Under the pieces are notes generated by a model. That model worked only from the letters and a program-made list of their open reading frames with translations. It made no database searches and was not told the origin of the DNA. Positions 1 through 36,116 of a DNA stretch of 36,116 nucleotides are shown piece after piece (positions within the stretch are counted from its first letter, which is position 1; every line of letters begins with the position of its first letter). The stretch lies in the NCBI GenBank assembly GCA_027604185.1, contig JADGKB010000124.1:1-36116 (forward strand), written 5' to 3'. A program made the translations under genes and the position numbers. This stretch comes from Boothiomyces macroporosus (Eukaryota > Chytridiomycota > Chytridiomycetes > Rhizophydiales > Terramycetaceae).

Positions 1-1516
1 TCGGTGAATTCTTCTTTTATCTCCCTAATGTAACGTTTCTTCTTTAGTTCATGATTGTGCAGCTTTTTCACATATACTGGATCACTCCATTTCCAGGTTA
101 CCTGCCTCAAAACTACTACATTTCTACTTTCCTTGTCTGTGATTATTTGTTCTGGTTTTTCTTCTGAATTCAGCATATCTGTGACTATAGCATATCCTTC
201 GTAAGTGTCCAGAGCAGCCCCGATAACTAACCGCAATGATTGGAGCTGGCCAGCTATTGAATCTAAATACAAGTACGCGGGAAATATGACGTGTGGGTTC
301 ATTGTATTTCCAAGAATACTGTAAATAACAAATGTAAAGCAACTTAGAATTGTAGTAAAACTTCCCACGGCAGTGTTGATTACTCTATTCACGATATAAA
401 GGTTGTACCAAACATCCATATCTTGGTCGATATTTTCCTTTACAATGCCAAAGAAATAGTCTTGAATGTTGGATAATTTGATTTTCTTGATATCTACCAT
501 TAAATAAGTATACTCTTGAAAATTGCACGCAACGTATTTAGTCTACTGTCTTGAAGTATATTTGAACTAGTTGCTATTTTTTGCAGTTTCATTTGCAACA
601 AGATAACAGGGATCAACAGAATAAAATACCAGATACCAGTGAATATTGCAGTGATCCCAATTAAGGACTGCAGTAATATCAAATTGGTGAGAATTTGGAC
701 TATTGGGAGAGCACAAGTGTTTACAATAGTTAGTCCTTGCAAAACCCGGTATGAATCCCGATCAAACATTTGAATCAGGTTACCAGTTTCAAATTTCTAT
801 CTTAATACCAGGTTACCAAGCGACTGATGGAGCTTAGTCTCAAGATTTTCTCGTACATGATCGTGTAGAATTGCATGTAGAATTTAGCTCGAAACCGCGC
901 ATCAATTCCACCTGTAAAAGAATCGATTGCCGGAGTGCATACAGAAGTCAACAGCAACAATAAGAGTACAATTGCAATATTACTGAACCAATATACATGT
1001 GGTGCTGACGGATCTAAAAACGATATAAACTAGTTTCAAGTTGGAATTACCTGACCAATCAACAGCGGTTTAAAAGAGGCAACTAAAATGGACACCAATT
1101 TTAGAATAGTTATTGACAGTCTATTTTTAGCTGTACTTACATTTCTTTGCGGTATATCTTGAACAGGTGCCAATACAGACTTGGTGGTTTTGGGTTTACA
1201 CCATCGAGATGTAACTTCAACTCGTTGAAATAAGCTAGGGTTTGAACAGTCATTTTTTCATAGGAATCAGACAGCTCTGGAATATCCTAATTTGGCGAAA
1301 AGTTACCTCATCTTGAATAATTTCTTTTGCTGCTTTTTTGATAATAGGTGTAGCCCAAGAGTGCGTAAATCGATTAAACAAGTTGAATTTTGCTCTAGTC
1401 ATTCGAGTGAAAGAAAATGCTTTGAATTTTGGCCACAGTAACTGCAAAATCCAAAAATAGCATTTTTGCCTTAATTTGGAAGAATGCGCAACGGCTAGAG
1501 TGGTACCCATCTTCAT
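1..1516 (-). CDS. ABC transporter, ABCC/MRP family, 5' part (runs off the left edge)
   Basis: This is the N-terminal part of an MRP/cystic-fibrosis-type ABC exporter. The start is the ATG at 1516. Removing introns 1287-1306, 1121-1140, 1030-1050, 797-816 and 494-513 (20, 20, 21, 20 and 20 nt) gives one open frame to the window edge. An FNLFNRFTHSWATPIIKKA segment matches the 'SRLTFSWVTPLI' opening of MRP cores. It is followed by the first membrane domain, with the loop ISRLKFETGNLIQMFDRDSYR and the IKKIKLSNI coupling segment. The frame reaches the linker before nucleotide-binding domain 1 (VTWKWSDPVYVKK). Walker motifs would lie outside the window. ABCC proteins export glutathione or other conjugates across plasma or vacuolar membranes; the substrate here is unknown. 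The family call is firm and the exact N-terminus less so. Confidence 0.85.
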
Positions 1517-2252
1517 TGAATATGTTCAACGACTATATCCGTCTTACTGTTCTGAATATCCGAGATAATTCAACTGCTCTGTTTTTATGATTGAGTTACA
1601 AGAAACTAGAATTCATTACTGACGGTAAAAGTAAAAAAGGCTACTTTCAAGCTTCTTGGTTAACTTTACTTTTTCTGAAAGCCCCTTTCAAAGCTTTAGA
1701 TTTGCTCATTTCAAATTGGTATCTGGTGTTAACGACTTTTCATGATCACATATTATTGAGGGAAAGGGATTACGAAGAGATCTATTGAAATTTAACCATT
1801 TGTACAGCTGTTTATTATTTCCAAGCATTTAAAAGTGGATATTCCACATTACACAGTACCAGCCTTGCCTTCATCAAATAACGAAACAGGAGCTGCGTCT
1901 TCCTGTGATACAGGAACATTCAATGCAAATACAACAGAAGCACAAATTGCAGCTATTTTGATAAAGTTCATTTGGTCAAAACAGCGATCAGCCGTTCTTT
2001 TAAGTGCAATGGGTACTGCGCCACAAACACACAATATTGCTGAAAAGAGTCTATCCATTCAAATAAAGTTTTCAAACAATAAAAGATAGTACCATATTCC
2101 AACAGCGAGATTTTCATGGCAAAGTATCTAATTGCTGATTAGGCAATCAAAGTCTCACTTCAATTGAGTTTAGTGCCACTCCCAAAAGAGAAAGTTTTCC
2201 CATTTTGGGACAACCAATCAATTTAAAAATGTGCTTTTTCATCCTAGTCTGA
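1517..2252. other. Intergenic region between divergent genes
   Basis: This gap separates the ABC transporter start (minus strand) from the unknown gene at 2253 (plus strand). The only coding candidate is the 40-residue minus-strand ORF at 1849-1971, listed separately. The other short frames start with TTG or lack coding character. I see no RNA gene or repeat. Both flanking promoters must lie here. Confidence 0.5.
1849..1971 (-). CDS. Possible small secreted peptide (40 aa)
   Basis: A 40-codon ORF starts at ATG 1971 and ends in TAA. Its first ~17 residues (MNFIKIAAICASVVFAL) look like a signal peptide: a Lys near the start, then a hydrophobic core ending in small residues. A short acidic tail follows (NVPVSQEDAAPVSLFDEGKAGTV). 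An AATAAA motif lies about 35 nt after the stop on the same strand. No family is recognised and no Cys or Kex2-type dibasic site is present. A chance ORF in intergenic DNA remains quite possible. Confidence 0.35.
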   Translation of the reverse strand: MNFIKIAAICASVVFALNVPVSQEDAAPVSLFDEGKAGTV

Positions 2253-3508
2253 ATGGATCAAGTTTGTTTGACTGACCAGAACAGTAAAGATAATTAATTG
2301 AAGGGCCTGAAAAACTTATCCCCTGTTCGGATAATAGCTCTGACGACGAATCAAATATCGCAGAGCTATCGATGGATGTTGACTATTTGGCGTTACCAGC
2401 ACAAATGCTACCTTTCATTGATACCGCATGGGGTGGGGAGCTCTATTGTTCTGGAAATAGGGCAACTTTCGGTCAAAGTATATTCAACTTTAATGTAGGC
2501 TTTCCAGAAATTTGTAAAGCCTTTGAGAAACCGTGTTTACAACAAAATTCCATTATTTCCAATTCTGATGATGATGAAACGCTCTCTAGCAATGTGTTTT
2601 CTGTTACTTCAAGTGACCAAAGGGCCTTTGAAGAGATGGATGACGGTTCCTCAGACGATTCGTCAGAATATATTCGTATTTTGTGCAAATCAAACTCTAA
2701 TGACAAATTGAACAGCTCTAAAACTACCATAATCCATGAATCCGCGTCTGAAGATTTCACTATCGTACTTACAGATGAATTGATTGCTCTGATTGAAGAA
2801 CAAAAAACTAAATCCCTTGAAGGATTTTTAGACTGGAAAGCAATGATACCACAATACTTTGGAAATCATCTTGGTTTGCTAGCTGAAGTTTTTAGAGTAC
2901 ATTTACCTTCTCTGGATGAGGGAGAATACTGGTTTGGGTCTGACTTTATCATAAATTGCAATGAACAACAAATTCCAAATGGTGTTCAATTTGTAGGGCT
3001 AATTATATCAGAAGGAACTGCTGGGAAAAAGTTTCTACTACTAAATGGCCGTAAAAAGGTGGAATTAAAGATTGGCTATTACGAAGCTATTACAAATATA
3101 CTAGCAATTAAAGTCCACGGAGATGGTGTGTTTTCCATGTATAACAAGAACAAACCGTCGTTTCAAAAAGTGTGTGCGGAGCCATCTGATTTGGTCTTTG
3201 ATTACAACCCAAGAATGCTTTTTGTAGGAATTATAACTAAAATTGGAACGTTCAAAGTAAACATTTTGGGCCGTGATCAAGAACACGACATTGATTTTTT
3301 TGGAAATGGTTGCCAGGTAATCTACACTGACCGTCTAACTAAATTGCAAAATATCTACTCTGCAAGAGTAGTTATTTTAAAAGTTTTATCATCAAATATC
3401 GCAATCATGGATTTCAATTATTCATCTGCATGCTACATTCGTGGGGAATATGATCCAAAGTTTATTGATATATTCATCCCTGCTGGAGCCAATCCACACT
3501 ATTTTTAA
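2253..3508 (+). CDS. Unknown protein, 411 aa, acidic/Ser-rich N-terminal half
   Basis: The start is ATG 2253. A 31-nt first exon is joined to 2304 by removing a 20-nt intron (2284-2303, GTAAAG...TTGAAG), and the frame then runs to TAA 3508. I do not recognise a family. Residues ~1-140 are low-complexity and acidic/Ser-rich, with S-D-D-E and S-S-D-D-S-S runs typical of casein kinase 2 target regions. From ~150 the sequence looks globular, with alternating hydrophobic strands (for example VQFVGLIISEG, RMLFVGIITKIGTF) that suggest a beta-rich fold. There is no signal peptide or membrane segment. AATAAA overlaps the stop codon. It probably acts in the nucleus or cytosol, but that is inference. 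Confidence 0.75.
2284..2303 (+). other. 20-nt intron after a 31-nt first exon
   Basis: A GT...AG intron with an AATTAATT branch-like stretch. Without splicing, the only in-frame ATG would be 2372; splicing adds 33 acidic residues in frame. It follows the same pattern as the introns proven by conserved proteins elsewhere in the window. Confidence 0.7.
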
Positions 3509-3785
3509 TAAAGGTGTATTCTACAATCATAAATTTAAATGAATGTTCTAAGATATCGTACAGACACTAATGGATTCTGATTGCAAGTAGTTTGTAGAAC
3601 AATGTAGAAACGTTCGCAAAGGGAAACTTTTAAAGTTTGTTCAACAATGAAGCAACTGGTGTTTTATTGACAATGAGAGTTTTGAGGACTTTAGCATTTT
3701 CTAATTTACATATGGTAAGTGGTACACAAAGGGTTGCAAGCGCACTTCTTAAGGTTACTTTTTCTAAAGTTTATTTATTCAATTG

Positions 3786-7223: not shown

Positions 7224-8698
7224 TTACCACCAACACTCTTCTTTGAGCAGCTTCATCAATTCTTCATTTCCATCTTGAACAGCATATTTATAAGCCCATT
7301 GATTCACTGAACAGCCATTGTTTAAAAGCCATTTCACCAATTCTACATTTCCATTTTGAACAGCATATTCAAGTGTTTCTCCGTTGAAAGGGCATCCGTT
7401 TTCTTGTAACCATTTGACCAACTCCCAGTTATTGCATTCAACTGCATCTGTAAATGTACCTGCATTCCATGGACATTTGTTTTCTCTGAGCCATTTCATA
7501 GTTTCAAAGTTACCAACAAGTGCTGCAGCTCTGAAAATATGTGCATTCCATGGACACCCATTCTCCTTTAACCACTTTATATTTTCAAAGTTACCATTCT
7601 GCACAGCACCTCTGAATGCATATGCATTCCACTTGAAGCCGTTTTCTTTTAGCCACTTCATGACTTTCAAGTTACCAATCTTTGCAGCAGAAGTAAAAGG
7701 GGTTTCATCATACGGACATCCATTCTCTTTTAACCATTTCATGTTTTCTAAATTGCCATTCTTTACAGCACTTCTGAAGGTACTTACATCCCACTTGCAG
7801 CCATTTTCTTTTAACCATTGCATAATGTCTAGTCTTCCATTTCTCGCCGCAATGTCAAATGCAGTAACTTTCAATGGACATCCATAACTTTTCAATCTCT
7901 TCATCTCTTCCAAATTTCCAGTAGCCACTGCCTGATCAAATACATTTTCACTCAAAGGGCAATTGTTCTCCATGAGCCATTTAATAGTTTCAGGGTTGGA
8001 GACATTAGCCATAGTCTTGTTATTCCACGGACATTTATTCTTTTTTAACCAAATCATATTCTCCACGTTCCCAAGCTCTGCTGCAGCTTGAAATGTAAAT
8101 GCATTCCAAGGACATTTGTTCTTTCTAAGCCATTTCATTATTTCAAGGTTGCCTTTTCTTGCAGCGACTGCGAACGTGCCTTGATTCCAAGCACATCCAT
8201 TCTCCGTGAGCCATTGTATTGCTTTCAAGTCGCCTTTTTTATTGCATTCTTGAGAGTACTGGAATCAAAAGTATATCCATTTTCTTTTAGCAATTGAAAT
8301 AATTCCAGGTTCACACTTTTTGAATTGATCTTGCATCCATTGGGATCAAATGGACATCCATTATCTTTGAGCCACTTTATATTCTCATACTTGTCACTCT
8401 CTACCGCAGCACTAAATGTTTTTGCATTCCATGGACACCCATTCTCTTTTAACCACTTTATAATTTCCAAATTGCTTTTTGCAGCAAAAGTAAATGTATC
8501 TATATCCCAGGGATATCCATTTTCTCTCAGCCATTTTAAATTCGCCAAGTTTCCATTTGCTGCTGCTTGGCTAGTAGAGAAATATTTCGTTTTTTTCTTT
8601 ACATGTTCGCTCTGTAGTTCCCTATTCCTAGAGAGTGTTTCTGAGTCGCAAAACAGCCAAATCCTATCCACTACTTCAATTGGCAATGCGTCAATCAT
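7224..8698 (-). pseudogene. F-box-like/ankyrin-type repeat protein with one-base frameshift
   Basis: Two overlapping frames form one protein of ~491 codons if a single base is added in the T6 run at 8235-8240 (A6 on the coding strand). The first frame starts at ATG 8698 with an F-box-like opening (LPIEVVDRIWLFC). Upstream in-frame codons reach only a TTG start, so 8698 is preferred. About 17 degenerate ankyrin-type repeats of ~27 residues follow, each centred on a WLKENGCPWN-like motif. Repeat spacing runs straight across the break (LKNAIKK then GDLKAIQWL), so the break is recent or a sequencing error. Such proteins are often expanded in chytrids, oomycetes and giant viruses and may be ubiquitin-ligase adaptors. 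No intron was found. Whether this is a true pseudogene is uncertain. Confidence 0.7.
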
Positions 8699-18112: not shown

Positions 18113-20262
18113 ATGTCCAGCCCTTCAGCAAGTTCACCTACCCATCGAAAGAGAGCATCGTCCGTGAATTCCAGGCCTGCCAGTGATAAAACAGTTCATC
18201 AACGCAGGCGATCGTCGTCAGCAAGTGCCAAAAACTCACCATTGGGACAAACAGTTACGGTACCAACAAATACTTTTAGTGTAAGCAAAAACTAATCTAG
18301 AATGTTTTAGAAAGTAAATCAAACGATCTCTTGAATCCAGAATCGTCGCGTCCCGTTATTCCAAAAGAAATCAAACTAAGCACACCACGCGCTTCTGCGA
18401 ATTCACTTTCTTTAAAGCCAGCTCCGATATTGGCAATAAATACCAGTCAAAGAATATCATCTAATGTAGAAAAGGGAAAAGCACCGCTGCCTGTAGAACC
18501 TTTACCAGAAACCAGACAAAGCGTTGCGACTGCTTTTGGATCCACTACCGAATCCAGCGCTAGCCTTAGAGAAACTGCTATAAATAGCCGATCTAGTTTG
18601 TTCAAAGACGGCCAAGCTTCTGTACAATCAAATTCTTCAGAAAACATTCAAGAGCAAAACGAAATCTTGCATTTACGAATTAGCTCATCCAATTTATCAG
18701 GATTAGCAGACAGACTAAAGCAAAACAGTGCAACCATCAATGTATTCGATTCCAAGAGCCCTGAAATCCTCAATGTGTTTAATGATTCTGCTAGTCCAAA
18801 TACTTCTGTAAAACCAAAAGCGATCCGCACTCTTGCTGATGTTCCAATGTTCAATCAAGACGAAGGATTCACGTCTGAAAGCTCTTTTGCGTCAGAAAAC
18901 TCAAGAGTACCTATCGTATGTTTTATTAATGTTAGGAAGTCAAAAGAGGATCTATACTCCTTGGATCAGATCTAAAGAAAGGAGACAGTAGAAGAAAATC
19001 AGTTTCTTTCAACGAACCACCTCCAGAAAGTGCTGGCTCACCAATAAAATCACCTCCTATCACTCAACCAAGGAATAATTCACCTACTGATTCACTAAAA
19101 TCTGATGGCTCTGGAAACAGTAAAGCCTCAAGCTCAGCAAAAGGCTCCGATACTAGTAAATCAACCATTTCAAAGTCAATCAAATCAAACTCGAGCAAAT
19201 CCTCCAAAGTATCCAGTTCAGCCAACACCAAATATGACGAAGATGATGAAATTTTAGGAGCCAAACTAGATAGAGACGACAATGAAGCCCTAGGAAAACG
19301 GTACAGCAAGAAAATAGAAACCGATAGCGCAAAGATTCTCAAAAAGAAAAAGGATAAATCTGAAATCCATAAAAAGAAACACCAGTCTTACATTCCGCCA
19401 GGCTTCCAAGTACAAAAACCAAAACGCGAAGATAAACCGAGAAAACCAAAGATTATTGAGACTGAAGACGGTGATTTGGCAAATATCGATAAAGATTTAA
19501 TAGAGAAGCGTATTCAGAAACGCCAATCGCAAAAGAAGCTCGTCTCAGTTCCACAATCACCATTGAAAACAACTGTAATTCCACCAACAATAGTAAAAGA
19601 AACAAACTTCAAAACGCAAGCCATTTACAAAGGATTCTGTATTGTCATTACTCTACTATATCTAGTAATACTTTTGATTACCCAAAATATAAAGACTCTG
19701 AATACACTACTATTCTGGCACTGGGCAGGAATGTGTGGCTACTTTACAGTACTATGAATTAATCTAGGTATCGTTTTTCAGTATATACAAGAACGTTGTT
19801 CAAGCACAGCAATCATTCTACGACATGGATTACAAAATCAGTGATACATTAATGCTCTCTAGCGCAACTTTCTCTTTACTACAAGCAGCAATCTATTGGG
19901 GATACTATTTCTTTATCCAAAAAGATGTGTTTATTGGAGTAGGCTTTAATTTACCATTAATTTTGATGTTTGTTGATTTGGCAATTAGTAGTGTAGAAAT
20001 TACAAAAATCACTTCGATATTCCCGCCTATATTTCTGATTGCATATGAATTTGGTGTTTGGTTCTGCAAGTACGTTGTAGGCTGGGACTGGCCAATGCCT
20101 ATATATGGTCAGTACTTTAGTATTGACGCTAATCCGGCAATGATAATTGCTTTTATTGTCGTCTCTTGTTTATTTGTAATTGTGGGTGTCAATATCGTGT
20201 ATTTCTACCTGTTGCTAAAGAATTACATCAATACTAGAGTCAAGAAAACTAATCCAGTTTAA
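18113..20262 (+). CDS. Protein with long disordered N-terminus and multi-pass membrane C-terminus (696 aa)
   Basis: Four exons are joined by removing introns 18281-18300, 18916-18935 and 19749-19767 (20, 20 and 19 nt); all junctions keep frame. Residues ~1-480 are Ser/Lys/Pro-rich and disordered (SPTHRKRASSV, KSVSFNEPPPES and similar likely phosphosites). A basic stretch and about six hydrophobic helices follow from ~495 (FCIVITLLYLVILL, FWHWAGMCGYF, LLQAAIYWGYYFF, LPLILMFVDLAI, AMIIAFIVVSCLFVIV). The membrane half loosely resembles FAR-17a/AIG1-type proteins (DLAISSVEITKI position and a VGWDWPMPIYG loop), but I would not assign it. AATAAA overlaps the TAA. It probably sits in the ER or plasma membrane with a cytosolic regulatory tail. 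Confidence 0.8.
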
Positions 20263-21821: not shown

Positions 21822-23214
21822 ATGCTCGATTCCAACGACACCAAAGTTCAAGTTACCGGATGCGATATCGACGGTATTCCCCGCGGTAAAATCCTCAATG
21901 TAGACAAATTCAATCACTGCGAAAACGGATTCGGTACTCTCCTCTAATCCAGGCTTTTGTAACGTAATCTTTGGATGGGATATGCATGACGCTAACTACG
22001 ATCCGAAAACACCAATTCAAAAGACAGATGCTGGGTACAGTGATATCCTTGCCAAGATTGACTTTAACACTTTTCGAAGATGTCCAATTACAAAAACTCC
22101 TCATTACTTGGTGGATTTTTACAATCCGCTTACTAACCAACCATTAGCTTACTGTCCAAGGTCACTGCTGAAATCAGTCGTAAACAAGCATCCTCAAATG
22201 AGAGCGTTTGCTGGGATTGAATTTGAATTCTTTAATTTCAAGGAAACCAGTGATTCACTAGCTCAAAAGAAAGGTTCCAAATTAGAGCCAATGACTCATG
22301 GAATGTTTGGATACTCTGTTGCCAGACCTTCGGTTAACCAACAGTACTTTGATGACATTTACGAAAAATCTAGAGAATTTAATATTCCATTAGAATGCTT
22401 CCATACCGAAACAGGTACTTGTATTTAATACAGGTCCGGGAGTTTATGAAGCAGCTATAGCGTATGCGGATGTACTGGAACTATCAGATCGCGCTCATTT
22501 GTTTAAAATGTTGACTAAAAAGATTGGAACGCTGCGTAATTCAAGCTAATTTAGATGGAATTACTCCTTGCTTTATGGCAAAGCCTTATGGTAATCAACC
22601 AGGTTGCTCGGGACATTTGCATTTCAGTCTACAGGATGAGAATGGCAACAATCTATTCGCTGACTCAAATGACCCTCAAAAGATTTCAAATACCTGTCGC
22701 CAATTTATTGCTGGTGTATTGCAAGGGCTTGAATCCATCATGGCTATACTTGCGCCTACTATCAATAGGTAAATGATACTAAAATAGTTATAAACGATTA
22801 AACATTGCCTATTGGGCACCAGTAACTGTTTCTTATGGGTTTGAAGATCGTATTTCGGCAATCAGAATAATTACTCCCCCAATTTGCTCTTCATCTGCTA
22901 CTAGAATAGAAGTTCGTGTTCCAGGAGCAGATGTGAATTGTTACTTGGCGACATCAGCAATATTGGCTTGTGGATACTATGGGATAGAAAACAAGTTAGA
23001 GTTGCCTCCTCCAAAGAACGCAAAAGAATGTAAACTACTTCCACAAACACTAAGTCTAGCTGTAGAAAAGATGGCTGGTAAAGATAGCTTTGCAAGAAAA
23101 GTGCTTGGGAATGATTTTGTAGACCATTATGTCGCTACTAGACAACATGAAATCAGATTATGGCAATTGGCTGTAACCGATTGGGAATTAAACAGGTACA
23201 TGGAAACAGTCTAG
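21822..23214 (+). CDS. Type I glutamine synthetase-like ligase (GlnA/FluG-type), 438 aa
   Basis: Five exons are separated by four introns of exactly 19 nt (21934-21952, 22415-22433, 22536-22554, 22769-22787). Removing them rebuilds the family motifs across each junction: GFGFCNVIFGWDMHD, FHTETGPGVYEAA, HGITPCFMAKPYGNQPGCSG and LAPTINSYKRLNIAYWAP. The N-terminal segment TGCDIDGIPRGKIL is the beta-grasp start. The ATP/Glu-site motifs of glutamine synthetases (E-T-G-P-G, G-x-S-G-H-x-H with HLHFS, R-I-E-x-R as RIEVR) are present. Fungal members of this branch ligate gamma-glutamyl to amines or polyamines rather than ammonia, so the substrate is open. ATG 21822 is the first possible start. The TAG stop is followed directly by AAATAAA. 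Confidence 0.9.
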
Positions 23215-23245: not shown

Positions 23246-23255
23246 GCAGGTCCAT

Positions 23256-24712: not shown

Positions 24713-27700
24713 TTAATGTTTTTGTTGGTTCTTTTGAGCAGTGGCAACAATAGTGTTCAGAGTCGCTCTCTGTGCTGTGCTTAAACGGCTATCCAGGATA
24801 CTGCCTTGGCCAGTTTGTTGCAAGTGGTTCATTGTTTGCGTAAACCTGATGTATGCATCAATAGTATCGAGTGGGGTGATGAAATAAATATCTTCCTGCA
24901 TAAATTCTTCTACGTCCCATTCTTCATCATCGCTATAATCGTCAGTATGGGCTTGCGCAGCATCATCAGCCAAAGACTCTAAAGTTTCCTGCTCTTGGTC
25001 ATCAAACTCTTCCGCTTCTTCAAAATCATCATTGTTTTCGTAATCTTCGTATTCTTCTGGCTCGCCTTCCATCGACTCACGATCTAAATTAGCAATAAAC
25101 TACATTCTAGTGCACCTTGATATGTTTGGAAAATCTTTAAAATTCCATCAAACAAGTGAGTCCACATGTTTTGCAAAGATCCCAATTGGTTTTGTGGTAG
25201 CTCCAACAACGTGCACAATGCAAGAATGGACAGTTTCTTGTCATGCACTCTATGGAAATGATCAATATTCTTGAACCAAATTTCACAAAAGGCAGTAGTC
25301 CAGTTAATATGTTCCAATAGTCCAAGTGCCATGGTTGGATTATAGTAAATGGCGTTCAAGACTACTTCAATACAGTGAACTCGAAGTGCGACTGTCTTTA
25401 CTTTGTTCTTTAGTAAATTGTACGCTTGCTCTACAAATTGCGGCACAAACTAGATTAAAATTAAATTACAGAGTCAATCAATCCTCTAAGGTTATGCAGC
25501 ATGGTTTCCATTAATTGAATAGCCCTGATTTTATCAGCTTCTCTTCCTAGTTTATCATTCATTATAGTCATGATCATTTCAAATAACTGATTTTGTAAGG
25601 TAGGGTTGGCAGCAATGACATCTTTACCATATGAAATATAATTGTCGAGCGATGGAGACATTTCTTCAAGATATTCTAATGCATCCTGTTTAAAAGTGTT
25701 GACAATGTATGGGAACAAATTCCACATTGTTGGAGATACTTGCTTGGCACAGAACAATGAGGTTTCAATAATTTCGAATAGTTCTTCATAGAGATCCAAA
25801 ATAGAGTTTTCCAGAATGAACTTCAGTGCAGGCTCAATAACAATTTCAATTTCCAAAATAATTGCAGGAGATGAATCAACAGCTAGAATAAGCGAAGCAA
25901 TAGTCTTCAAGACCCCCATAGCAGCCATAGTCTTGTCTTCGGCATCTTCAATATCAAAATCGTCTGAATTGAAATTTCCTTCGGCCATTATACGCATAAA
26001 TGTATCTCTCAATTGAGAAGCAAGTTGAGTAGCGTACGGCTTTAGTTCTTCAGAGAATTCAAATACCAACAGCTCCATTGAGTGAGTAAGAGTGTCTAGA
26101 TCAATTTCATTGGTAGTATTCAATAGCCCCTGCATAACTTGAACAACATGAGGTTTCATGGCAGTAACAACTTGTGGATACTTCAAGAATGGTCCAAGTG
26201 CCAATGATGAACTAACTCTGACTGGTAATTGCGCATCATTCATGCAATTCAAAATATTAGTAAATGCAAATTGCAAGTTGCTTTCTTCCTTGTATGTAAT
26301 ACCAGAGAATTGATGAATAACATCGCATGCTTTAGCTCTAAGGAATGCGTGGGGTGAGGTCAAGTCGGGAAAGACGTGCGACACCAAGAACTGTTCCATT
26401 TGATCTTTAATTGGCGATTTCTGGGATTAAAATATCTTTACATCAGAGAGAGCCATATCTGCCAATTGGGCCATAATGTTCAATGCACCATATTTCTGGT
26501 TTGGATTAAACTGCTGAGCCAAAGAAGTCAAGATACCGTTAACCATTGTAACAATAGGGATAAATGTCTGGCTGAATCTTGACTTGACCAACGAAACCAA
26601 TAACTCTTCAGCAGCTGTAACTGGAGATCTGAAATCATCAATTGGAGGATCGACTTTTTTATGCTATTGTTAGTCTGTTCGAAATCAATATTTGCAAAGA
26701 CAAATATCATCACTTACAATATATTCAACTGGATCTTCATCCCATAGCTCTTGATCTTGCTCAGTAAAGCAAAGTAACGGGAAAATAAATTTAACAAGCA
26801 ATTCCAATTTTGTAAGAATCATTGGCCAAATTGGTTTTAACCCAATGCAGTGCCCTACAAAAGATAATTGCAGCTGAATGGCTCTTGGTGATGAATAGGC
26901 ATTCAACTCGAACTGCTCAAAATAAACGTTGAGAATCTTTGGAACGAAATGTTCAACAAACAACTTTGAGAACTGAGTGTACTTTTTATCTCCCTTTCTT
27001 CTCCCATATTTACCTAAATTAACTCTTGTTTACCCATCAATGTATTCAAACATCCGAATGCCCATTTCTTTAATTTCCAGAAAACATGCTTTTCGTCAGT
27101 TTCGTTGGATTTCTTTTGAACGACATTCATAAACAGAGTGCACCATGGAACTAGCGAATCCATTGATTGTAAAACAGGAGACAAGTCCATTCTAATTGCG
27201 CAGTTGTAGGTCTTGATGATTGTCTTGAGCATCAACAGGGATTCCGGATTATCAATCTGCTCCAGCTTTTGTCCAATAGACAACAGAATAGGAAACAACG
27301 ATTGGATGATTGCGTATAAATTAGCTCGCTTTCCAGCCTGAGTCCATTGAAGAGTTTTTACCTTGATTAGCTAGACAATACCAATTCTAATAGAACCGCC
27401 AATCCGGTAAATAGTAAATTAGAATCTTGGCTCTGCAATAATTGCACAATTGTTTGGTTCAATTCGGGCCATGAGTTCTGCAGATTTTCACTGCTGATAA
27501 TCAAGTGAATCGAATTCAGCAATAACTGTTTCTTGGTTCCGTTAGTTTGAGCAATAGCTTGAATAATATGCTGCTTCACCCACTGTTTTTCTTCGTTTGT
27601 GATTTGGTTCTGGCTGGCGGTCCATCCATTCCTCACTCTATTTTTGAAATAAACAGCAGCTACATTAAACTATTCGGAACCTGGATTAGAATACTTTTAC

Positions 27701-27885: not shown

Positions 27886-27983
27886 TTCCTTAAAAAAAAT
27901 TTTTGTCCAGCCTCAGTTATTATTGGCACCAGCCACTTTTCATTCGCCACAAACGGAAATCGAACCCTGGTTAATTTTTACAA

Positions 27984-28843
27984 ATGTCAGGAAGAGGAGC
28001 AGGATACGACAGGTATTTCAACCTAACAGAAAGACACATTACAGTATTCTCACCGGAAGGAAGATTGTATCAAGTCGAATATGCATTTAAAGCAATCTCT
28101 AACGCCGGTATCACTTCAGTTGGTGTGAGAGGGAAAGATTGCGCAGTTGTAGTTACCCAGCGCAAAGTCCCTGATAAACTGTTGGATCCTAGCACTGTGT
28201 CAAACATTTATTCCCTCACTTCAAAGATTGGGTGTGTGATGACTGGTTTGATTCCAGACGGAAGAGCACAGGTACGGTTCTACTGACTTTAGGTTATTTT
28301 TGATTGATCATAGGTAATATAGACTTATTCAAGGTTCAAAGAGCACAAGGAGAAGCCGCCGAATGGAGATATAAATACGGATATGATATTCCAACAGATA
28401 TGCTGGCAAAGAGAGTCGCCAATATTAATCAAGTCTATACTCAGCAAGCAGCAATGAGACCAGCTGGTGTATCAATGATCTTGATCGGATACGATGATGA
28501 ATACGGTCCACAACTGTTCAAATGCGATCCTGCTGGGTAAATTGTTACTAACAAGTTATTATATGGGATACAAAGCAACCACTGCCGGAGCAAAACACCA
28601 AGAAGCTCTGAACCACTTGGAAAAGAAACTGAAAAAAGACCCTGAATTAAACCAAGAGGAAACTATTGAAGTATTTCATTCTAATTGTAGCTGGCTATAA
28701 TGACACTCTCCAACGTCTTGTCGATGGATTTCAAGCCAAAAGATTTGGAAATCGGGATCGTCACCAAAACCGAAAGATTCAAAATAATGACCGAGCAAGA
28801 GATTGAAGCTCATTTAACAAGAATTATTGAACGAAGCGATTAA
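27984..28843 (+). CDS. PSMA6: 20S proteasome alpha-type subunit 6 (alpha1), 252 aa
   Basis: Four exons are separated by introns 28272-28333 (62), 28537-28555 (19) and 28671-28690 (20). Splicing rebuilds [33 protein letters not shown] and [15 protein letters not shown], matching PSMA6/Scl1 throughout. The start is ATG 27984 ([13 protein letters not shown]). The N-terminal alpha-subunit signature [17 protein letters not shown], which forms the gate helix H0 region, is complete. The length suits the family (~246-252 aa). The protein forms part of the outer heptameric ring of the 20S core in cytosol and nucleus. Divergent from the importin gene with 98 nt between the two ATGs. AATAAA overlaps the TAA, and the convergent neighbour's stop is 21 nt away. 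Confidence 0.97.
28272..28333 (+). other. 62-nt intron made of three adjoining intron-like units (21 + 21 + 20 nt)
   Basis: Unit 1 (28272-28292) runs GTACGG...CTACTGACTTTAG, unit 2 (28293-28313) GTTATT...GATTGATCATAG and unit 3 (28314-28333) GTAATA...ACTTATTCAAG. Each begins GT, ends AG, is 20-21 nt and has a pyrimidine-A branch-like site near its end. No exon bases lie between. The whole block falls inside the conserved PDGRAQ/VQRA join of PSMA6. Confidence 0.8.
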
Positions 28844-28864
28844 TAAAATCTGTTTTTTAAAAGA

Positions 28865-30250
28865 CTATTCTTTGCATTTCATTTGTAATTCACGAATTAG
28901 TTCGTGGCAGTTATCCAGCATCTCGAACAGAATAGCTTGGCCTTCAGGAATATTCCCTTCATCATCGTGAAACTTTCCATCTACTTGAAGCCCGTTGATT
29001 GCTTGGATTTTGACTTGGTATGGAATGAGCTCATCATAAGTGAGATTAACGTTCCATCTTTTCAGTTGCAAAAGACACTTTTGAAGAGTTACTAGTTGGT
29101 TAAAGATGTACATTAGAGATTCATCAACTGGTTCACAAGCAGATTGTAGCTTGTAGATAAATCTGTAACACTACATTAAAATAAAGTACTTTGTGAAGGA
29201 GATAGTGCAATACAGCTTGCCCAGGCGGTACAGTATCACCAACCATGAATTTACCATCCACCCGCATGTTGTCAATCTGTCCCAACTTTACTTGGTACGG
29301 AATTAGGTCATCTCCCTTCAATGTCCTGAAATTAGCAATATGAACCATCTTGAATACATGGTGAAATGTTCTAGTTTGCCCTTGATTTTAATCAGTTCTT
29401 CATAAACATGGCGCAACGGATTATCACCCACCACTGGATCCCTTGAAGCCAATAGTTCATGCTAGATTAATAAATATTACTATATCATCAAAACAAGCTT
29501 CTAGTAGATTGATTACACTGGCTTGGCCAGGAACTACCTTTCCATCTTTGGTCATGAATTTGCCGTCTATTCTCACAGAATCAATTTCTCTTACTTCATC
29601 CTGTAATATTTGAACTTCAACAAGTGAAAAGGCGTGCGGGTTCTTTCTAGCAATCAATTGATTCAATTCTAGTTTAATTTCAATCAATCGACTGTGGATT
29701 GGTATCAAAGCATCAGAAATACTAGACAACTCAGTTTGTAACTCTTTCAAAACAGTTTCTAGTTAAGCTTAGGCTTACCGCAGTGCTGTTCTTTTAATGA
29801 GAGCATGGATAGTCCCTGTTTGTAGCATTCACCATCCGCGCATTTCAATAGAGGAATATGTTTCTTTTGCATATTGATTTCATTCGATAACTTGGTCAGT
29901 GTTTGACTGTTGAATAATCCAGATATTTTCAGATCATCTAGTTTATGGTGGATTTTAGTCAAAGCCAAGTATCCAGTGAATGTGTTGGGAGACATCAGGT
30001 CTTGCTTTGACCATAATTTAAAAAACAAGGGCAAGATATCATCAATAAGCTTATCCGATTTTGTTGAAATGTGGTGGCCTTGTGAAACTTGGTGTTCGAT
30101 TTCAGTTGATGACCGAAGAGAAAACAATTCCTTTACGAGAGACATCAAGTCGTTCCATAGCTGAGTTAGATTAACGTCTTCCGCTTGTACTTTGTTTAGA
30201 ATATCCTCCAATTTGGTTTGAATGTGTTGCTCAGCTTTGGGTGATTCCAT
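28865..30250 (-). CDS. DUF2408 / UPF0662 family protein (435 aa)
   Basis: Five exons; introns 29759-29778, 29462-29480, 29326-29345 and 29171-29189 (20, 19, 20 and 19 nt). The start is ATG 30250 (MESPKAEQHIQTK); the frame upstream offers only a TTG. The protein is helical and repeats a motif of the form D-G-K-F...(V/I)-P-x-G-Q-A three times (about residues 220, 310 and 395: IDGKFMTKDGKVVPGQA, VDGKFMVGDTVPPGQA, VDGKFHDDEGNIPEGQA). This and the RWTLKGDDLIPYQVKL segment rebuilt across intron 3 match the fungal DUF2408 (UPF0662) family, whose function is not established. It lacks a signal peptide or membrane segment. The TAG stop has no AATAAA close by. Confidence 0.82.
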
Positions 30251-30505
30251 GTAATCAGGAAAAATTTCGGAGACTGAAAATGAGTTTATCAATTTGATTC
30301 GGATACTATATCTTGGGATTCGGATAAAGCAGATTCTTGATATCAGGTAGCATTGGTACTACAAGTATATGCTATATCTGAGGTAGATTGTTAATATCAG
30401 GCCCTATACGTAGCATTGGATCGTAACGACTTTTGGATGTCCAACAAGTAGATGCGGATCCGAGAACCTATTATAGGATCTCCCAATAAAAATGGATTCT
30501 ACTAT

Positions 30506-31668
30506 TTATTGAACTCGGACAATATTACTCAACTCTTCGCCTTCACTAAACGTTTCCTGTGATTTAAGCGGACGCAACCCCTTCCCAAAATAAGTCATGT
30601 TCTGCCAAGCAACCGCCATTGTTGCAACAACGAGGAGCATGGTAATTGCAACTACATTAAACGAATACATACTAAAGAACGTAAGCGAGTTTTTGCTTGA
30701 ATCAAACCTTGGCTCATTGTCCACCCAGATATTCCACAGCTTGGAAATTAAATATCCAAAGCCAGTTAGCAGACCTGCCAGTGTCAAATAAACCAAGTAT
30801 TTGTTTTCTTTTCGCACCTACATAAGCTAAAGTTACTGAATAGTAAGACACAATTAAAAGCAAGAAGGTAGCCGGGAAAGCTATCAGCACATGAGTGACA
30901 ATGGTAGCTGTTGAGCTTTGGTAAGAGAGAACTAGAGCTACGAATTGAACAGAGAAACCCAGGAAAAAGTAAACGTCGACTATGTTAATTAAGAGTACTC
31001 TTGATCAACAATACGTAAATGTGATATAAATAGGTAACATTTCTAACAACCAAATCACATCCAAGCTCCTTGTAAATAGTCCATCCAAAGACATAGTACA
31101 ATTTAAAGGTCAAGTATCCAGATCCCAACAAAGAAATGAAAAACAATACAATTAAAATGACCTCTGGTGCAGAGGTAGGATGTGCGTTTACTCCTGGCAG
31201 GATGCTTGCTACCGAATTTGCCCAGGATTGTGCTTGAACTGACTGCATAATGGAATACACAAACAAAGCGAAATTAAAAATAAAAGTGGTTACTAGTTGT
31301 ATGAGAGATGTTTCCTTCAACTACGTTAATAACACTTACAGCATCTGCGGTCAGTACCAGTTGAAATAGCTGCGCAACGATAAAGAGCCCATGGTAGACT
31401 GTCAAAGCTGCTCCGTTTTTGTAGACGTTTGGGATTTGAACAGAGTCCCGATATCCATACAAATTTGAATCCAGAAACTGCCTAAATCGAATCGCTATGT
31501 AGAGCTCAAAAGCAGAAATTACTATTGCCTGGAGAAATGATAGTTGTAACAAGTACCTGGACCATTTATTATCCGGGATCTATATCAATTGCTGTTTACC
31601 CATCCTTTTGGCTTTGGTTTTTCATATCGTTCAACAGAAGTTCGCTCTAAAGGACCATCACCATCCAT
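30506..31668 (-). CDS. UPF0658 Golgi membrane protein, paralogue B (354 aa)
   Basis: Six exons; introns 31580-31599 (20), 31321-31339 (19), 30980-30998 (19), 30818-30836 (19) and 30652-30672 (21). It starts MDGDGPLER at ATG 31668, as does its neighbour. The length is 354 aa if the last, stop-free intron is spliced and 361 if retained. Seven or eight hydrophobic segments carry UPF0658 marks: ALTVYHGLFIVAQLFQL, LTFKLYYVFGWTIYKELG, YLYHIYVLL, IDVYFFLGFSVQFV and VRKENKYLVY. In S. pombe the family is placed in the Golgi; biochemical function is not known. It is a tandem copy of the gene at 31858-33135. AATAAA overlaps the TAA. Confidence 0.88.
30652..30672 (-). other. Stop-free 21-nt intron (paralogue B)
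   Basis: GTATGTATTC...TTTAATGTAG sits at the same phase-1 position (after TFF) as the proven 20-nt intron 31986-32005 of paralogue A. Because it is 21 nt with no in-frame stop, retention would insert seven residues (SMYSFNV) without breaking the frame. Splicing gives LTFFIAITMLLVVATM, aligning with MTFFIVIMVLLSIATM of paralogue A. Confidence 0.75.
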
Positions 31669-31857
31669 TGCTCCGAAAAAATTATTTGAAAATTTTGGAC
31701 AGCTGTAAACCTTTTCACCAGAATTGTGGTTGAATTCAAAGCAATTCGCCGACAGTATTGGTGATCGGTAGATCGCTTCGAATACAACTGGATCAATTTT
31801 TCGGGAATTGCACAAAGCTGGTTTAGAGTCACATATTAAAAGAGATTGATTTATTAC

Positions 31858-33135
31858 TTATATGGCATACTCTTGTTGAAGCGTATCTTTAGACGAGTCT
31901 CGATTAATATATCCATGGCCAAATTGAAGCATATTGAGCACCGCAACCACCATAGTAGCTATGCTTAGCAGAACCATAATAACAACTAATGTTAGGAATA
32001 TGTACTAAAGAAAGTCATGGAATTCTTTGACGATTCAAAACGAATATCTTTTTCAAAGTAAATCGCAGCGAATTTGGAAAGCACATATCCAATAGCAACC
32101 AAGAATCCGGCCAGAGTAGCGTATACCAAATACTTGTTTTCTTTACGCACCTATCATTATCATTCACTTACTGCATAGTAGGCTAGTATAAGAATAGCCA
32201 CTGCTCCTGTAACAGACACAGTGACATTCAATGCTATCGCAGAGTTGCTATCTACACCATTATTGGTACCGTATGCCAACACTAAAGTAACAAACTGCAC
32301 AATGAATCCGAGCCAGAAATACACATCAATCTTCAATAAAAGAATGTAAATGTGATATAGGTACAATACATCTACATTAATTCAAACTTACTTTTGACTC
32401 GCACATCAGCACCCAATTCCTTGTATGTGGTCCAACCAAACACATAATACAACTTCCAAGTCAAAAAGATCCATGCAATACAAAAGAAGAGCAATACCAC
32501 AATCAAAGCAATAGAGGCACCTCCATACGGATACCCACCATCAATCTCTTTTAATAATGACGAATTGAGTTTGTACACCATGTCTGGATAAGCCTTTGTA
32601 ATATTGTAGGAATCACTGGCCCAAGTTGAAGCTTGACGAGTTTGAATAATTCCGTAGCCAAAGGTAGCCCAATTGAAAGCTGTGGTAGTGACTAATTGAA
32701 TCAATGACAATTGGAACAACTAATTTAAATATAACCTTACTGCATCGGCAATTAGAACGAGTTGAAAGAACTGGGCTCCAATGAGCAATCCATGATAAAC
32801 TGTAATCGCTGCTCCACTCATGTAATCCTTATGAACTGTATAATTGAAACTGTATTCGTATTGCACATGAATGTTGGTAGAATTAGTGTTTGGAGGAATA
32901 CTGGAGTAGTTGCCAAACAAATTCTCCAAGAATCCTCTGAACCCAACCATAATATACAATTCTATTGCTGATACTATTACGAATTGGGCGAATGATACCA
33001 ACAAAGCTAATTTGGCCCAGCGGTTCTGTGGAATCTTTTGTTAGGTTTATTTACCCATGCTTGCTTCTGCTGAGACAAATGCGAACTCCTGTTTCTTTCC
33101 AGAGTGACTCTTTCTAATGGGCCATCACCGTCCAT
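31858..33135 (-). CDS. UPF0658 Golgi membrane protein, paralogue A (391 aa)
   Basis: Six exons; introns 33035-33054 (20), 32720-32740 (21), 32372-32391 (20), 32151-32171 (21) and 31986-32005 (20). The start is ATG 33135 (MDGDGPLERVTLERN). The topology and motifs match paralogue B (AAITVYHGLLIGAQFFQL, LTWKLYYVFGWTTYKELG, IDVYFWLGFIVQFV, VRKENKYLVYATL). It has a longer first lumenal loop with three N-x-S/T sites (NYSS, NSTN, NYTV type), suggesting glycosylation. Four intron positions are shared with paralogue B and one differs. AATAAA lies 3-5 nt past the stop. Only 189 nt separate its stop from the start of paralogue B. Confidence 0.88.
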
Positions 33136-33511
33136 TTGTTTTTTGTTTAGTTTTTCACTTGACTGCTTGTTTTTGTTTGCAACGCCACAAATGCAATCCG
33201 TCCTTGATTGAGCCTCACCATTTACACCTATGAAACGATTCAGTTCTCGGCAATAATTATAGAATTATTTTGAGAGAGATAATTATTTTAGTAATTAGAG
33301 TTCATGAGAGTTGGCAGAGTGAATTGTTTCCCGTTGAAAATTTCAATATAGTTACAATTATTCTTTGGCAAAATGGGCAGAATTAACCTTGGATCTAATA
33401 GCCTGATGCAAACTTTCTCTTTGATAATCTCAGGAAAAGAGTGGGTGGCAACGTTCTACTATTGTCAATGCGAGTCAGCCTCAATTTGATACACACTGAT
33501 GGTATGTTTTA
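33136..33511. other. Intergenic, nothing recognisable
   Basis: 376 nt between the Seb1-like stop and the UPF0658 paralogue A start. The frame continues open for ~35 codons upstream of ATG 33135 without another ATG. No RNA gene or repeat is apparent. Confidence 0.45.
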
Positions 33512-35580
33512 TTAATTTCTTCTTTTTCTTGGTTCATCTTGATGATCACTATTTTGTCTCTTATACTGCTTCTCCAGTCTAGGTGGGAGGGGTAATCCTT
33601 CCCTTGGAGCACTAGCATTTCCTCTCGCATTCAAGACATTCTCCATTGGAACATTTGGTTCTTCACAAACAGTGCCTCCTATAATAGGGCCTAGAATTAG
33701 AAAAGAATACCTCCTCCTCTTGGGGAAGCAGCGATATAAGCTTGATCATTTATAGGTATCTTTGAAATTGGGAATATTGTGAATCCTTCGGTGTAATTGA
33801 AGTGCTCTCTTGGTCCATAGCCGCAACCCCAACCAATTTTAAGATTATGTCCATCCACATGGTATGATTGTAATTGAGATCTTATCATTTCTGCTTCTTT
33901 TCTAGTAGCTATTTTTACAAATGCATTCTTTTTGTTTGAATTGACCTAGCATTAAGATCAGTTACTCTGATTGTTTCGACTCTGCCTACTCTTTCTAGTA
34001 TTTGCTGTAATTGAGTTTGACTTACAGATTGCGGCACTTCTGAAATATATAATGTTCTACTCAAGTCTAATATTAGATAAATGTACATTTTATGCAGTCC
34101 TGCGGAACAGATGGGTCAGGATGACTAGGGACACAATCTGGGCCAGGTCCAAGTTGGAGGGAATCTTGTTTCTTTGGTTTCAACTCGGCAGAGTTAGATC
34201 TGCTCTGACTTTTGTATCTGTCATTATTTGAATTTTGTTGAAATTGATTTTGGAACTGGGAGGAATTACTTGGGTATGTAGGTGATTGAGTATAAGAGGG
34301 AGATTGATTTTGTGGTTGACCCAATAATTGATTTTGTAATTGTATGTTTGGAGGTAATTGATTAAACCCAAAAGGTTGTTGAAACTGAGCCTGCATGAGC
34401 TGTTGGTATTGATTAATATCCTGTGTAGGAACTTGACCGTAGCTTTGTGGAATAAATTGTGGATTTGGAGGGTTCTGCTTTGAATCATGATACTGTCTAG
34501 GGTCTTGATTTCTATCATTATAGCCTTGTCTCGGATCTTGATTTCTATCATTATAGCCTTGTCTAGGGTCTTGATTTCTGTCATTTCTTTGCCTTGGATC
34601 TTGATTTCTGTCATACTGTCTTGGATCTTGATTCCTGTCATTATACCCTTGCCTATCATTCCTGTCATTATACCCTTGCCTATCATTCCTGTCATTATAC
34701 CCTTGCCTATCATTCCTATCATTGTAGCTTTGTCTATCATTTCTTCTAGGATCTTGATTTCGTTCATACCCATCTTGCTTGCCATATCTATCCTTTTCAT
34801 ATCGCTCTTTATCATACGGACGATCTCTAGAGTCTTGCCTTTCAGGCCTATTATCAGATTCTTTACGAGGATCAATTAATTTAGGTGGCTCTTTACCACC
34901 AAGCATTCCAATCAAATTAGACAAGCCAATAGTTTCATTAGACATATTGCCCAATCCCAGTGAATTTGGCTTTACAGAAGATAATAAACTGCTCAATCCA
35001 GAAAGACTAAGGAGGGATTGGCCGCCTAACCCTACTTCTTCAGATTTCCCAAACAAGCCGATACCCGCGGTACTCAAAGGTGAACCTGCAAGTGGCTGTT
35101 GCTGCAACAGAGGAGCAGAAACACTTTCCTTTATTTTTTCAACAGGTTTAGGGCTAGATTAATAGAGATTACTTGAAACACTCGAGCAGCTTCTTCAAGT
35201 CTATACTTGCCAGTAGTTCATTCTGCATCCATAAATTTAAAACTCTCTTCATTTTTTCCTTGTTATTAAATCATTTACTTTATCGTTATCGGGGGCTTGA
35301 GACAGGATATTGAACCAGTCTAACAAGCGAGGTCCTATTATCTTAGGATACTCTGTCTTTTTGCTCTTGAATATGGAATCAATGAGATACACTACTCCCA
35401 GCTTCACTGGGGGAGGACACCTCTTGATGAATTTTTCAATTAAATTAGTTATTTCCACGGGAGGCTGCATTAAATTATGATTACGTTCTTGTGTGCGATT
35501 TTAGTTAGGTTTGTAATTTTAGATACGGATACTGGGATCTTTTCTCCTAGTGAATTTATTTCTCTTTCGAAATCCTCCAT
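33512..35580 (-). CDS. SEB1: Seb1/Nrd1-like CID-RRM transcription termination factor (649 aa)
   Basis: Seven exons; introns 35465-35484, 35259-35278, 35154-35172, 34067-34086, 33946-33965 and 33691-33710 (20, 20, 19, 20, 20 and 20 nt). The start is ATG 35580 (MEDFEREINSLG). Residues ~1-130 form a CTD-interacting domain (VSVSKITNLTKIAHKN; IEKFIKRCPPPVKLGVVYLIDSI). A long Asn/Asp/Arg/Gln-rich linker with tandem repeats follows (~200-330), then a Gln-rich part. An RRM (~485-560: TLYISEVPQSVSQTQLQQIL, NAFVKIATRKEAEMI) is followed by the Seb1/Nrd1-specific GWGCGYGPREHFNYTEGFTI. Homologues bind Ser5/Ser2-phosphorylated RNA polymerase II tails and nascent RNA to direct 3' end formation. AATAAA overlaps the TAA. 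Confidence 0.92.
34504..34602. repeat. 33-bp tandem repeat in Seb1-like linker
   Basis: Units starting at 34504, 34537 and 34570 share CTTGATTTCTATCATTATAG-type sequence and encode the repeated protein unit DRNQDPRQGYN (11 residues). The third unit is diverged. The repeat stays in frame. Confidence 0.85.
34634..34741. repeat. 27-bp tandem repeat in Seb1-like linker
   Basis: Four units start at 34634, 34661, 34688 and 34715, each of the CCTGTCATTATACCCTTG type. They encode DRNDRQGYN-like units of nine residues. The first three are nearly identical, so expansion is recent. Confidence 0.85.
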
Positions 35581-35723
35581 GATTAAAAATTTTTTTAAAA
35601 GTGAAATGAAAATGAAATTAAATTTAATTATCGTATTTTAGAATAGTTGGGATAACGGATTTAAAATCTTTATGCCTTGAGCCGATAAACCTGCAAGTAC
35701 TAGTAAATCTTTTTGGAAAAAAA
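35581..35723. promoter_or_regulatory. Short divergent promoter region
   Basis: 143 AT-rich bases between the ATGs of the Seb1-like gene (minus) and the gene at 35724 (plus), including an A8 run just before the plus-strand ATG. No clear TATA box is seen. Confidence 0.4.
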
Positions 35724-36116
35724 ATGAATTTGAATCAGGAATTCAAGTTATTCTCTCGTCTCTTGTACAAGAACAAGAACCAATTCAAGCACTTTATTCA
35801 GTACCGGAAACTAGAGCATGTACACCGAATATACAAAAAGTATTTATTGGATCCAAAGGATGAACTACTACTACTTGGAATCAAGATCCTAATGCAAGCC
35901 TATGCCTGGCTACGATTATTATGTAAGCAGACTTACTTTATGCCGTTTACACTATCAATGATGTCAATCTGTAGTAGATTAATGTATTATTCCAAAGAAA
36001 TGATTGACAAGGAATATCTCTGCAATATTCATATGCCAATATCATTTAAAGATTCCACAGTAATAGAACAATATCCCGATATAATTAAACCAATAGAACA
36101 ATATCCCGATATAATT
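35724..36116 (+). CDS. Partial gene, possible Rmp1/NEPRO-like protein (131+ codons, runs off right edge)
   Basis: An open frame starts at ATG 35724 (MNLNQEFKLFSRLLYKNKNQ) and has no stop before the window ends. The N-terminal segment, a leucine-rich helix followed by LYKNKNQFKHFIQYRKLEHV and later KILMQAYAWLRLL, resembles the N-terminal helical domain shared by RNase MRP subunit Rmp1 and NEPRO. The marks are a K-N-x-H/F core with aromatic and basic residues around it. The resemblance is by eye and moderate. If correct, the protein would act in nucleolar pre-rRNA processing. The last residues are a 10-residue repeat (IEQYPDIIKP), which the window edge cuts. No intron has been found in the visible part. 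Confidence 0.5.
   Translation, partial: MNLNQEFKLFSRLLYKNKNQFKHFIQYRKLEHVHRIYKKYLLDPKDELLLLGIKILMQAYAWLRLLCKQTYFMPFTLSMMSICSRLMYYSKEMIDKEYLCNIHMPISFKDSTVIEQYPDIIKPIEQYPDII
36062..36116. repeat. 30-bp tandem repeat at the right edge
   Basis: AATAGAACAATATCCCGATA plus five more bases occurs at 36062 and again at 36092, a period of 30. It encodes IEQYPDIIKP in the partial gene. The window ends within the second copy, so the copy number is unknown. An assembly artefact at a contig end is possible if this is one. Confidence 0.8.

Follow-up and report, generated by a model that had tools for sequence, protein, structure and literature searches.

Predicted introns of 19 to 22 nucleotides predominate in the genome of the chytrid fungus Boothiomyces macroporosus

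The window analyzed here, i.e., the whole stretch of 36,116 nucleotides (nt), is an entire contig (JADGKB010000124.1, C124) of the genome assembly of Boothiomyces macroporosus (GCA_027604185.1; 15.2 Mb in 216 contigs), a free-living soil saprotroph of the Terramycetaceae (Chytridiomycota, Rhizophydiales). Its genes, which include PSMA6 and genes for a glutamine synthetase, a DUF2408 protein and an importin-7-like protein, are interrupted by predicted introns of 19-22 nt, which will be called micro-introns. An earlier note, made from the letters of this contig, had rebuilt 51 introns, 48 of them of 19-22 nt. The tuned gene model used here also gave 51 introns of 18-24 nt, of which 50 were of 19, 20, or 21 nt (13, 23, and 14, respectively) and one of 24 nt. 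These are very probably U2-type spliceosomal introns that have shrunk almost to their functional floor and are recognized by intron definition through fixed spacing; they would make up nearly all introns of the species, about 20,000 in 15.2 Mb. The single micro-introns of PSMA6, the glutamine synthetase gene and the DUF2408 gene in the window are as follows.

21934..21952, forward strand: glutamine synthetase micro-intron of 19 nt close to the N-terminus; the joined exons encode two residues more than in Terramyces
22415..22433, forward strand: glutamine synthetase micro-intron, 19 nt, within Gln-synt_C
22536..22554, forward strand: glutamine synthetase micro-intron, 19 nt; join TLHGITPCFMAKP
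22769..22787, forward strand: glutamine synthetase micro-intron, 19 nt; join INSYKRLNIAYW
28013..28033, forward strand: first micro-intron of PSMA6, 21 nt, in frame and stop-free; join GYDR/HITVF; missed by the gene model
28537..28555, forward strand: PSMA6 micro-intron, 19 nt; join DPAG/YYMG
28671..28690, forward strand: PSMA6 micro-intron, 20 nt; join ETIE/LAIM
28865..30250, reverse strand: DUF2408 gene with four micro-introns of 19-20 nt (at 29171, 29326, 29462, and 29759), two of them within the best DUF2408 stretch

The predicted exon joins in PSMA6, glutamine synthetase and the DUF2408 protein are fixed by the conserved proteins, which bears out for these three genes the claim of the earlier note that conserved families set the joins. 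Related species (Terramyces, Globomyces, and Kappamyces) were compared at the protein level. The spliced glutamine synthetase of 438 amino acids is 87% identical to a Terramyces protein, with 100% of the query covered, and the nearest relatives of spliced PSMA6 are found in Terramyces sp. JEL0728 (88% identity) and Globomyces pollinis-pini (82%). When the first intron of PSMA6 is retained, the Proteasome_A_N profile is matched from position 3 to 23 with 48.4 bits; once it is removed, the match extends from 1 to 23 with 55.1 bits. The joins were examined more widely in a Pfam scan of 20 spliced proteins with 59 micro-introns in total: 18 conserved-looking proteins, chosen from the 28 sample genes that contain two or more micro-introns and encode no more than 560 residues, and two from the window. 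All 20 matched a Pfam family, and 33 of the 59 micro-introns lie inside Pfam domains (8, 15, 4, 3, and 3 of 19, 20, 21, 22, and 23 nt, respectively). If retained, 24 of these 33 would introduce an in-frame stop codon and eight a frameshift, and a single one would leave the frame open and in register. Four spliced proteasome subunits encoded on other contigs matched PF00227 from position 1 or 2 to 189.

The length distribution was determined with a flat-prior gene model that allows introns of 15-200 nt, contains no branch-site model and was run on 216 kb. This model imposes GT-AG ends; decoy splice sites (TG..GA) were run as well. With real sites, 121 of 224 introns were of 19-22 nt (26, 55, 24, and 16 at 19, 20, 21, and 22 nt), as compared with four of 170 with decoy sites (2, 2, 0, and 0). 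Above 26 nt, decoy sites gave 159 introns vs. 97 with real sites, and real sites exceeded the decoys only in the bin of 151-200 nt (28 vs. 24). The peak at 19-22 nt was seen at all four penalty settings. Thus, the distribution in the 216 kb is narrow and lacks a class of ordinary length, as expected of a genome with near-uniform micro-introns. The second stretch of contig C18 (L027-L028), about 17 kb of which repeats the first, was omitted from the gene-model counts. With the tuned model, 82 of 104 gene models contained at least one intron of 18-24 nt, for a total of 291 such introns, and the other 47 introns were mostly bridges between genes, as judged by inspection. The gene model misses stop-free introns with a length divisible by three, and, therefore, the proportion of such lengths is not taken as a sign of selection.

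Micro-introns are also apparent when no homology is used. Across the window plus 200 kb from other contigs, with the second stretch of C18 included, donors peak about 10-12 nt upstream of the motif YTAAY, and AG peaks 2-3 nt downstream of it. Over the entire assembly, the pattern GTAHN{6,8}YTAAYN{2,3}HAG has 5,178 matches and the reversed pattern 941. The same motif with its first spacer extended by 10 nt has 531 matches; hence, the true spacing is in about tenfold excess, and the micro-introns occur genome-wide. Their number is estimated at about 20,500 from their density and about 19,600 from the motif excess.

The geometry of the introns varies little. Among the 127 introns of 18-24 nt called by the flat-prior model, 101 carry YTAAH, and, without any branch model, the branch A follows the first base of the donor at a distance of 13 nt in 43, 14 nt in 38, and 15 nt in 17 of these, i.e., in 98 of 101. 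From the branch A to the last G, there are 5-6 nt in 90 of the 101. Over all 127 introns, position -7 is A in 88% and position -9 is C or T in 91%, as expected for a U2-type branch site. The donor is essentially GTA(A), with an information content of 1.35 bit at +3, 0.30 at +4, and 0.08 at +5, and the G+C content is 29%. The predicted introns classify as U2-type (major) by their GT..AG ends, a YNYURAY-like branch site and the intact pairing stretches of U1, U2, and U6 described below. A micro-intron would thus comprise GTA(A) as the donor, a brief spacer rich in A and T, a branch site similar to YTAAY with its A 13-15 nt away from the first base, and an AG that ends 5-6 nt past this A, which leaves no space for a polypyrimidine tract.

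According to the earlier note, such introns imply a spliceosome adapted to minimal distances, which could be sought in factors such as U2, U6, SF1, and U2AF. The present analysis does not support this implication in that form. Both copies of the U2 snRNA retain GUGUAGUAUCUGUUCUU, the ordinary branch-binding stretch, the U6 snRNA (on the other strand) retains its ACAGAGA box, and the 5' end of the U1 snRNA, AUACUUACCUG, is ordinary (68.8 bits, just below the cut-off of 69.5). SF1 with helix-hairpin, KH, and zinc-knuckle domains, Slu7 with its full domain and Prp18 are all present, and introns of 54 and 122 nt occur in conserved genes. On inspection, U1, U2, U6, SF1, Slu7, and Prp18 thus looked ordinary, and the one deviation found is located in RRM1 of U2AF65. 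This protein aligns to the solved RRM1-RRM2 and C-terminal domains of U2AF65, and its gene, like those of SF1 and Slu7, is itself interrupted by micro-introns. The RNP1 aromatics of U2AF65 RRM1 contact uridine. In B. macroporosus, RNP1 of RRM1 reads NKEHCHVEF, and both aromatics are lost (H-C-H). The codons concerned are contiguous and away from splice joins. Among 120 listed of 1,310 U2AF65 homologues, F or Y occupies the first aromatic position in 118 and F the second one in 117, and H at either position is found only in the deposited protein of B. macroporosus itself. The corresponding triplet is YAF in Globomyces, FAF in Kappamyces, and SAI in one further relative. RNP1 of RRM2 (SKGFAFCEY) is ordinary.

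Recognition of the micro-introns would probably proceed by intron definition via the fixed spacing, with U1 and U6 acting at GTA and the branch site taken first by SF1 and subsequently by U2. Because RRM1 of U2AF65 is devoid of the aromatic RNP1 pair, U2AF may act mainly via protein contacts and the AG. Longer introns might persist where room is needed, as for a small nucleolar RNA (snoRNA) in RPL7, or where micro-introns abut. A more detailed proposal seems possible, if slightly on the doubtful side: introns of 19-22 nt could be the standard substrate of this spliceosome, some introns of 39-62 nt could be chains of micro-introns removed one by one via zero-length exons, and RRM1 of U2AF65 may no longer read a polypyrimidine tract, the fixed donor-branch-AG spacing being measured instead. 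A fungus that seems to make do with a donor-branch distance of 13-15 nt, in an estimated 20,000 introns and with ordinary snRNA pairing stretches and the usual early factors, would allow the lower limit of splicing to be studied in a cell that has more in common with the yeast models than have ciliates, nucleomorphs, and mikrocytids.

Several observations weigh against the reading of these segments as shrunken U2-type introns recognized through fixed spacing. YTAAH is absent from 26 of the 127 short introns of the flat-prior model. The gene model also made two false-looking calls in open frames of the window and has one known miss; the calls at 10391-10411 and 15654-15674 are probably false, as the frames are open without splicing. 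Cryptic micro-introns in long open frames were not depleted: seven were counted in the sense direction, whereas 200 synonymous shuffles averaged 1.8, and a looser pattern gave 12 vs. 8.2. The comparison is confounded by real introns, as all seven are introns called by the gene model. That RNA is spliced at the micro-intron sites is what we infer from the genomic sequence only, and the change in U2AF65 is a correlation in one species. Searches of the genome gave no match for RED or for the U12 snRNA of the minor spliceosome, searches that included no positive control and do not demonstrate absence.

Longer introns in the window are of two kinds, those that can be divided into abutting micro-introns and those that cannot.

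28272..28333, forward strand: PSMA6 tandem of 62 nt with three abutting units, 28272-28292 (21 nt), 28293-28313 (21 nt), and 28314-28333 (20 nt)
27660..27700, reverse strand: importin-7-like tandem of 41 nt, 27681-27700 (20 nt) followed by 27660-27680 (21 nt); join SQSAAVYFKNRV
26664..26717, reverse strand: importin-7-like intron of 54 nt with no split into micro-introns; join PVEYI/HKKVDPP by reading, covered by a weak Cse1 match

The protein join at the PSMA6 tandem is DGRAQ/VQRAQ, and its three units, which score 6.6, 6.3, and 8.9, each run from GT to AG with a branch-like A in place. A tandem scan, first over 216 kb and subsequently over another 69 kb, yielded pairs of 20+21 nt in the importin-7-like gene, 20+19 nt in PSMA7, and 21+19 nt in the topoisomerase II gene (TOP2). 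The importin pair replaces an intron of 35 nt in the gene model, and IBN_N spans its join. The join in PSMA7 is spanned by the proteasome signature, and a piece of 116 residues of the topoisomerase aligns end to end and ungapped with solved topoisomerase 2-alpha. Thus, complete introns meet at AG/GT junctions with no exon in between at five junctions in four genes. Of these genes, PSMA6 alone had been noticed before the scan. Stepwise removal via AG/GT, as in recursive splicing at zero-length exons and in stwintrons, is the model proposed here for the tandem micro-introns; those systems involve long or nested introns, unlike the abutting complete units of 19-21 nt in Boothiomyces. If removal unit by unit is true, the tandem arrays would be the smallest recursive-splicing units known to us.

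It is a real possibility, somewhat short of probable, that the dividing introns of 39-62 nt are single introns that are removed in one step, with the inner AG/GT being a relic or due to chance. Both routes would yield the same mRNA, and the deposited PSMA6 model has the 62 nt as one intron. Furthermore, the PSMA7, TOP2, and importin pairs came from the scan itself, and the excess of abutting pairs over the 216 kb is modest: at a score of at least 6, there are four at gap 0 vs. a mean of 0.84 for gaps of 1-199, with three gaps reaching at least four; at a score of at least 5, there are five vs. a mean of 1.93, with seven gaps reaching five; and at a score of at least 2, there is no enrichment, with 17 at gap 0 and up to 23 at other gaps. 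In contrast, each unit has kept the full micro-intron geometry, and of 200,000 random introns with good ends at each length, 216 of 39 nt, 426 of 41 nt, and none of 62 nt split into such units. Moreover, of the six abutting pairs that score at least 5 in 285 kb, five are located in introns of the four conserved genes; the sixth is antisense to a predicted gene.

Apart from the 54-nt intron of the importin-7-like gene, three longer introns outside the window resist such a split, one of 67 nt in a tropomyosin-like gene and two of 122 nt in RPL7; the 67-nt intron and one of 122 nt fall inside Pfam domains. The description of the introns as near-uniform in the earlier note therefore applies to the window and genome-wide as a rule with exceptions, i.e., the 54-nt intron and the two of 122 nt. 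The second 122-nt intron of RPL7 (C1:49892-50013) contains a sequence (L013:9892-10000) that resembles a C/D snoRNA. Its match to snR39 is weak (25.5 bits with a gathering threshold of 40; E 0.021), and the stretch in common is ACCAUCUUUCGGG..CUGA; SNORD2 was matched as well (E 0.034). At the gathering threshold, Rfam detected no snoRNA in the window or the sample, and the other 122-nt intron contains no recognized RNA. Yeast snR39 is likewise located in an RPL7 intron.

The micro-introns are already partly in the public record, via the deposited gene models of the species. In the deposited PSMA6 model, the first intron of 21 nt is read as protein, and the model stops one base into the intron at 28537-28555, the GTAA of which gives an in-frame TAA. 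The deposited U2AF model has four micro-introns (19, 20, 19, and 19 nt); a further intron of 52 nt costs the protein eleven residues that Globomyces retains, and another of 253 nt joins two genes into one, a fusion that the present model makes as well. Thus, both of the deposited models that were mapped differ from the conserved protein at a micro-intron, and public protein sets are affected. The gene fused to that of U2AF65 in both models precedes it and encodes a KOW/uL24-like ribosomal protein (PF17136; L034:433-2551, C2:121475-123593).

Such annotations bear on the question whether the introns are real and yet ordinary, i.e., shared by many Rhizophydiales and already annotated, with only a description lacking. 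This is quite conceivable, though on balance we doubt it. The small introns in the deposited U2AF model are in favor of it, and in the PSMA6 model of Terramyces, ten conserved residues are missing precisely at the site of the 21-nt intron of Boothiomyces, as if a gene finder had stretched a tiny intron, which is a weak hint that the trait may be common to the family. On the other hand, the Terramyces glutamine synthetase model is complete, an observation that is neutral either way, and the genome paper on Batrachochytrium and Homolaphlyctis, in the passages available, gives intron counts and no lengths (PMC5364385). The earlier note had considered such introns undescribed in free-standing fungal genomes. 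In the titles and abstract beginnings of the openly licensed literature, we found no description of them in a chytrid or other free-living fungus and no title reporting the Boothiomyces genome, which may have been described elsewhere; the part of the claim that does not stand is that of novelty to the record, given the four introns of 19-20 nt in the deposited model.

Comparisons with other organisms are based on passages of the cited papers. In a survey of 644 fungal genomes, Cryptococcus, with a mean of 63 bp, serves as the example of short introns (PMC8476143), and in human extracts a donor-branch distance of about 50 nt was said to be needed, with 35 nt abolishing assembly on one transcript (PMC6692369). 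The likeness to nucleomorphs and ciliates drawn in the earlier note is apt; mikrocytids and Encephalitozoon can be added to it. Nucleomorphs of chlorarachniophytes contain more than 800 introns of 18-21 nt in about 300 genes (PMC10245619) and resemble Boothiomyces in size range, narrow distribution and a number of introns that is high for the genome. However, a nucleomorph is the relic nucleus of an endosymbiont, whereas in Boothiomyces the main genome of a fungus is concerned, with an estimated 20,000 introns and tandem arrays. Introns in heterotrich ciliates are of 15-16 nt and those of mikrocytids are all of 16-17 nt (PMC10245619), i.e., near-uniform as in Boothiomyces yet shorter, and the mikrocytid introns are conserved in sequence. 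The mikrocytid spliceosome is highly reduced, whereas Boothiomyces retains SF1, U2AF65, Slu7, and Prp18. Ultra-short introns are standard and numerous in Paramecium as well, with 20-33 nt (title of a reference in PMC3629993) or around 25 bp (PMC5014332); their sizes are broader, and stop-free introns with a length divisible by three are in short supply, a class that the gene model misses in Boothiomyces. The nearest published relative of fungi that we found with introns this short is the microsporidian Encephalitozoon cuniculi, which has about 37 introns of 22-76 nt (PMC3629993) and, unlike Boothiomyces, is a reduced parasite with few introns of broadly varying size. Genomes with micro-introns are thus known elsewhere, and what is new here are the tandem micro-introns in four conserved genes and, on a weak match, the snR39-like snoRNA in an RPL7 intron.

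That assembly or sequencing errors or pseudogenes have put short insertions into reading frames, with the introns being the reader's repair, is extremely improbable: the assembly, which holds long near-identical stretches within contigs (~17 kb in C18), is not flawless, but insertions at random would not have GT, AG and a branch motif at a fixed distance in common, nor do the 121 introns vs. four for decoy sites and the tenfold genome-wide motif excess fit this explanation, and single-copy essential genes, such as those for proteasome subunits, U2AF65, SF1, and Slu7, are among those broken.

Further micro-introns predicted in the window are located in the following genes, those of UPF0658 and Seb1/Nrd1 being putative names.

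18281..19767, forward strand: membrane protein gene with micro-introns of 20, 20, and 19 nt (at 18281, 18916, and 19749), from the gene model
25084..27381, reverse strand: importin-7-like gene, five further micro-introns of 20-21 nt (at 25084, 25450, 26421, 27014, and 27362)
30506..33136, reverse strand: two UPF0658-like membrane protein genes with ten micro-introns of 19-21 nt, from the gene model, which fuses the pair with the next gene
33691..35580, reverse strand: Seb1/Nrd1-like gene in which eight micro-introns of 19-21 nt are predicted, including a closely spaced, less certain group at 34005-34086

The first 2 kb of the window contain a partial transporter-like gene, which is assigned with low confidence. 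On the reverse strand, an ankyrin-repeat protein with many similar repeats is encoded at 7224-8698, where a model intron of 56 nt is doubtful. At 14750-15784, also on the reverse strand, lies a gene for a rhodopsin-family receptor with seven transmembrane segments (7tm_1, E 2.6e-14), in a fungus; its one predicted micro-intron is doubtful.

Elsewhere in the assembly, the two U2 genes (L029 and L030, position 1501) have nearly the same 5' halves and clearly different 3' halves. About 17 kb are repeated on the same strand in C18 (62391-80000 and 110001-127610; L025-L028), and single matches with equal scores or sequence occur, also on the same strand, at C20:74242 and 119309 and at C2:279329 and 321925. 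The copies of these within-contig repeats are about 42-48 kb apart, and they could represent assembly redundancy or recent duplications.

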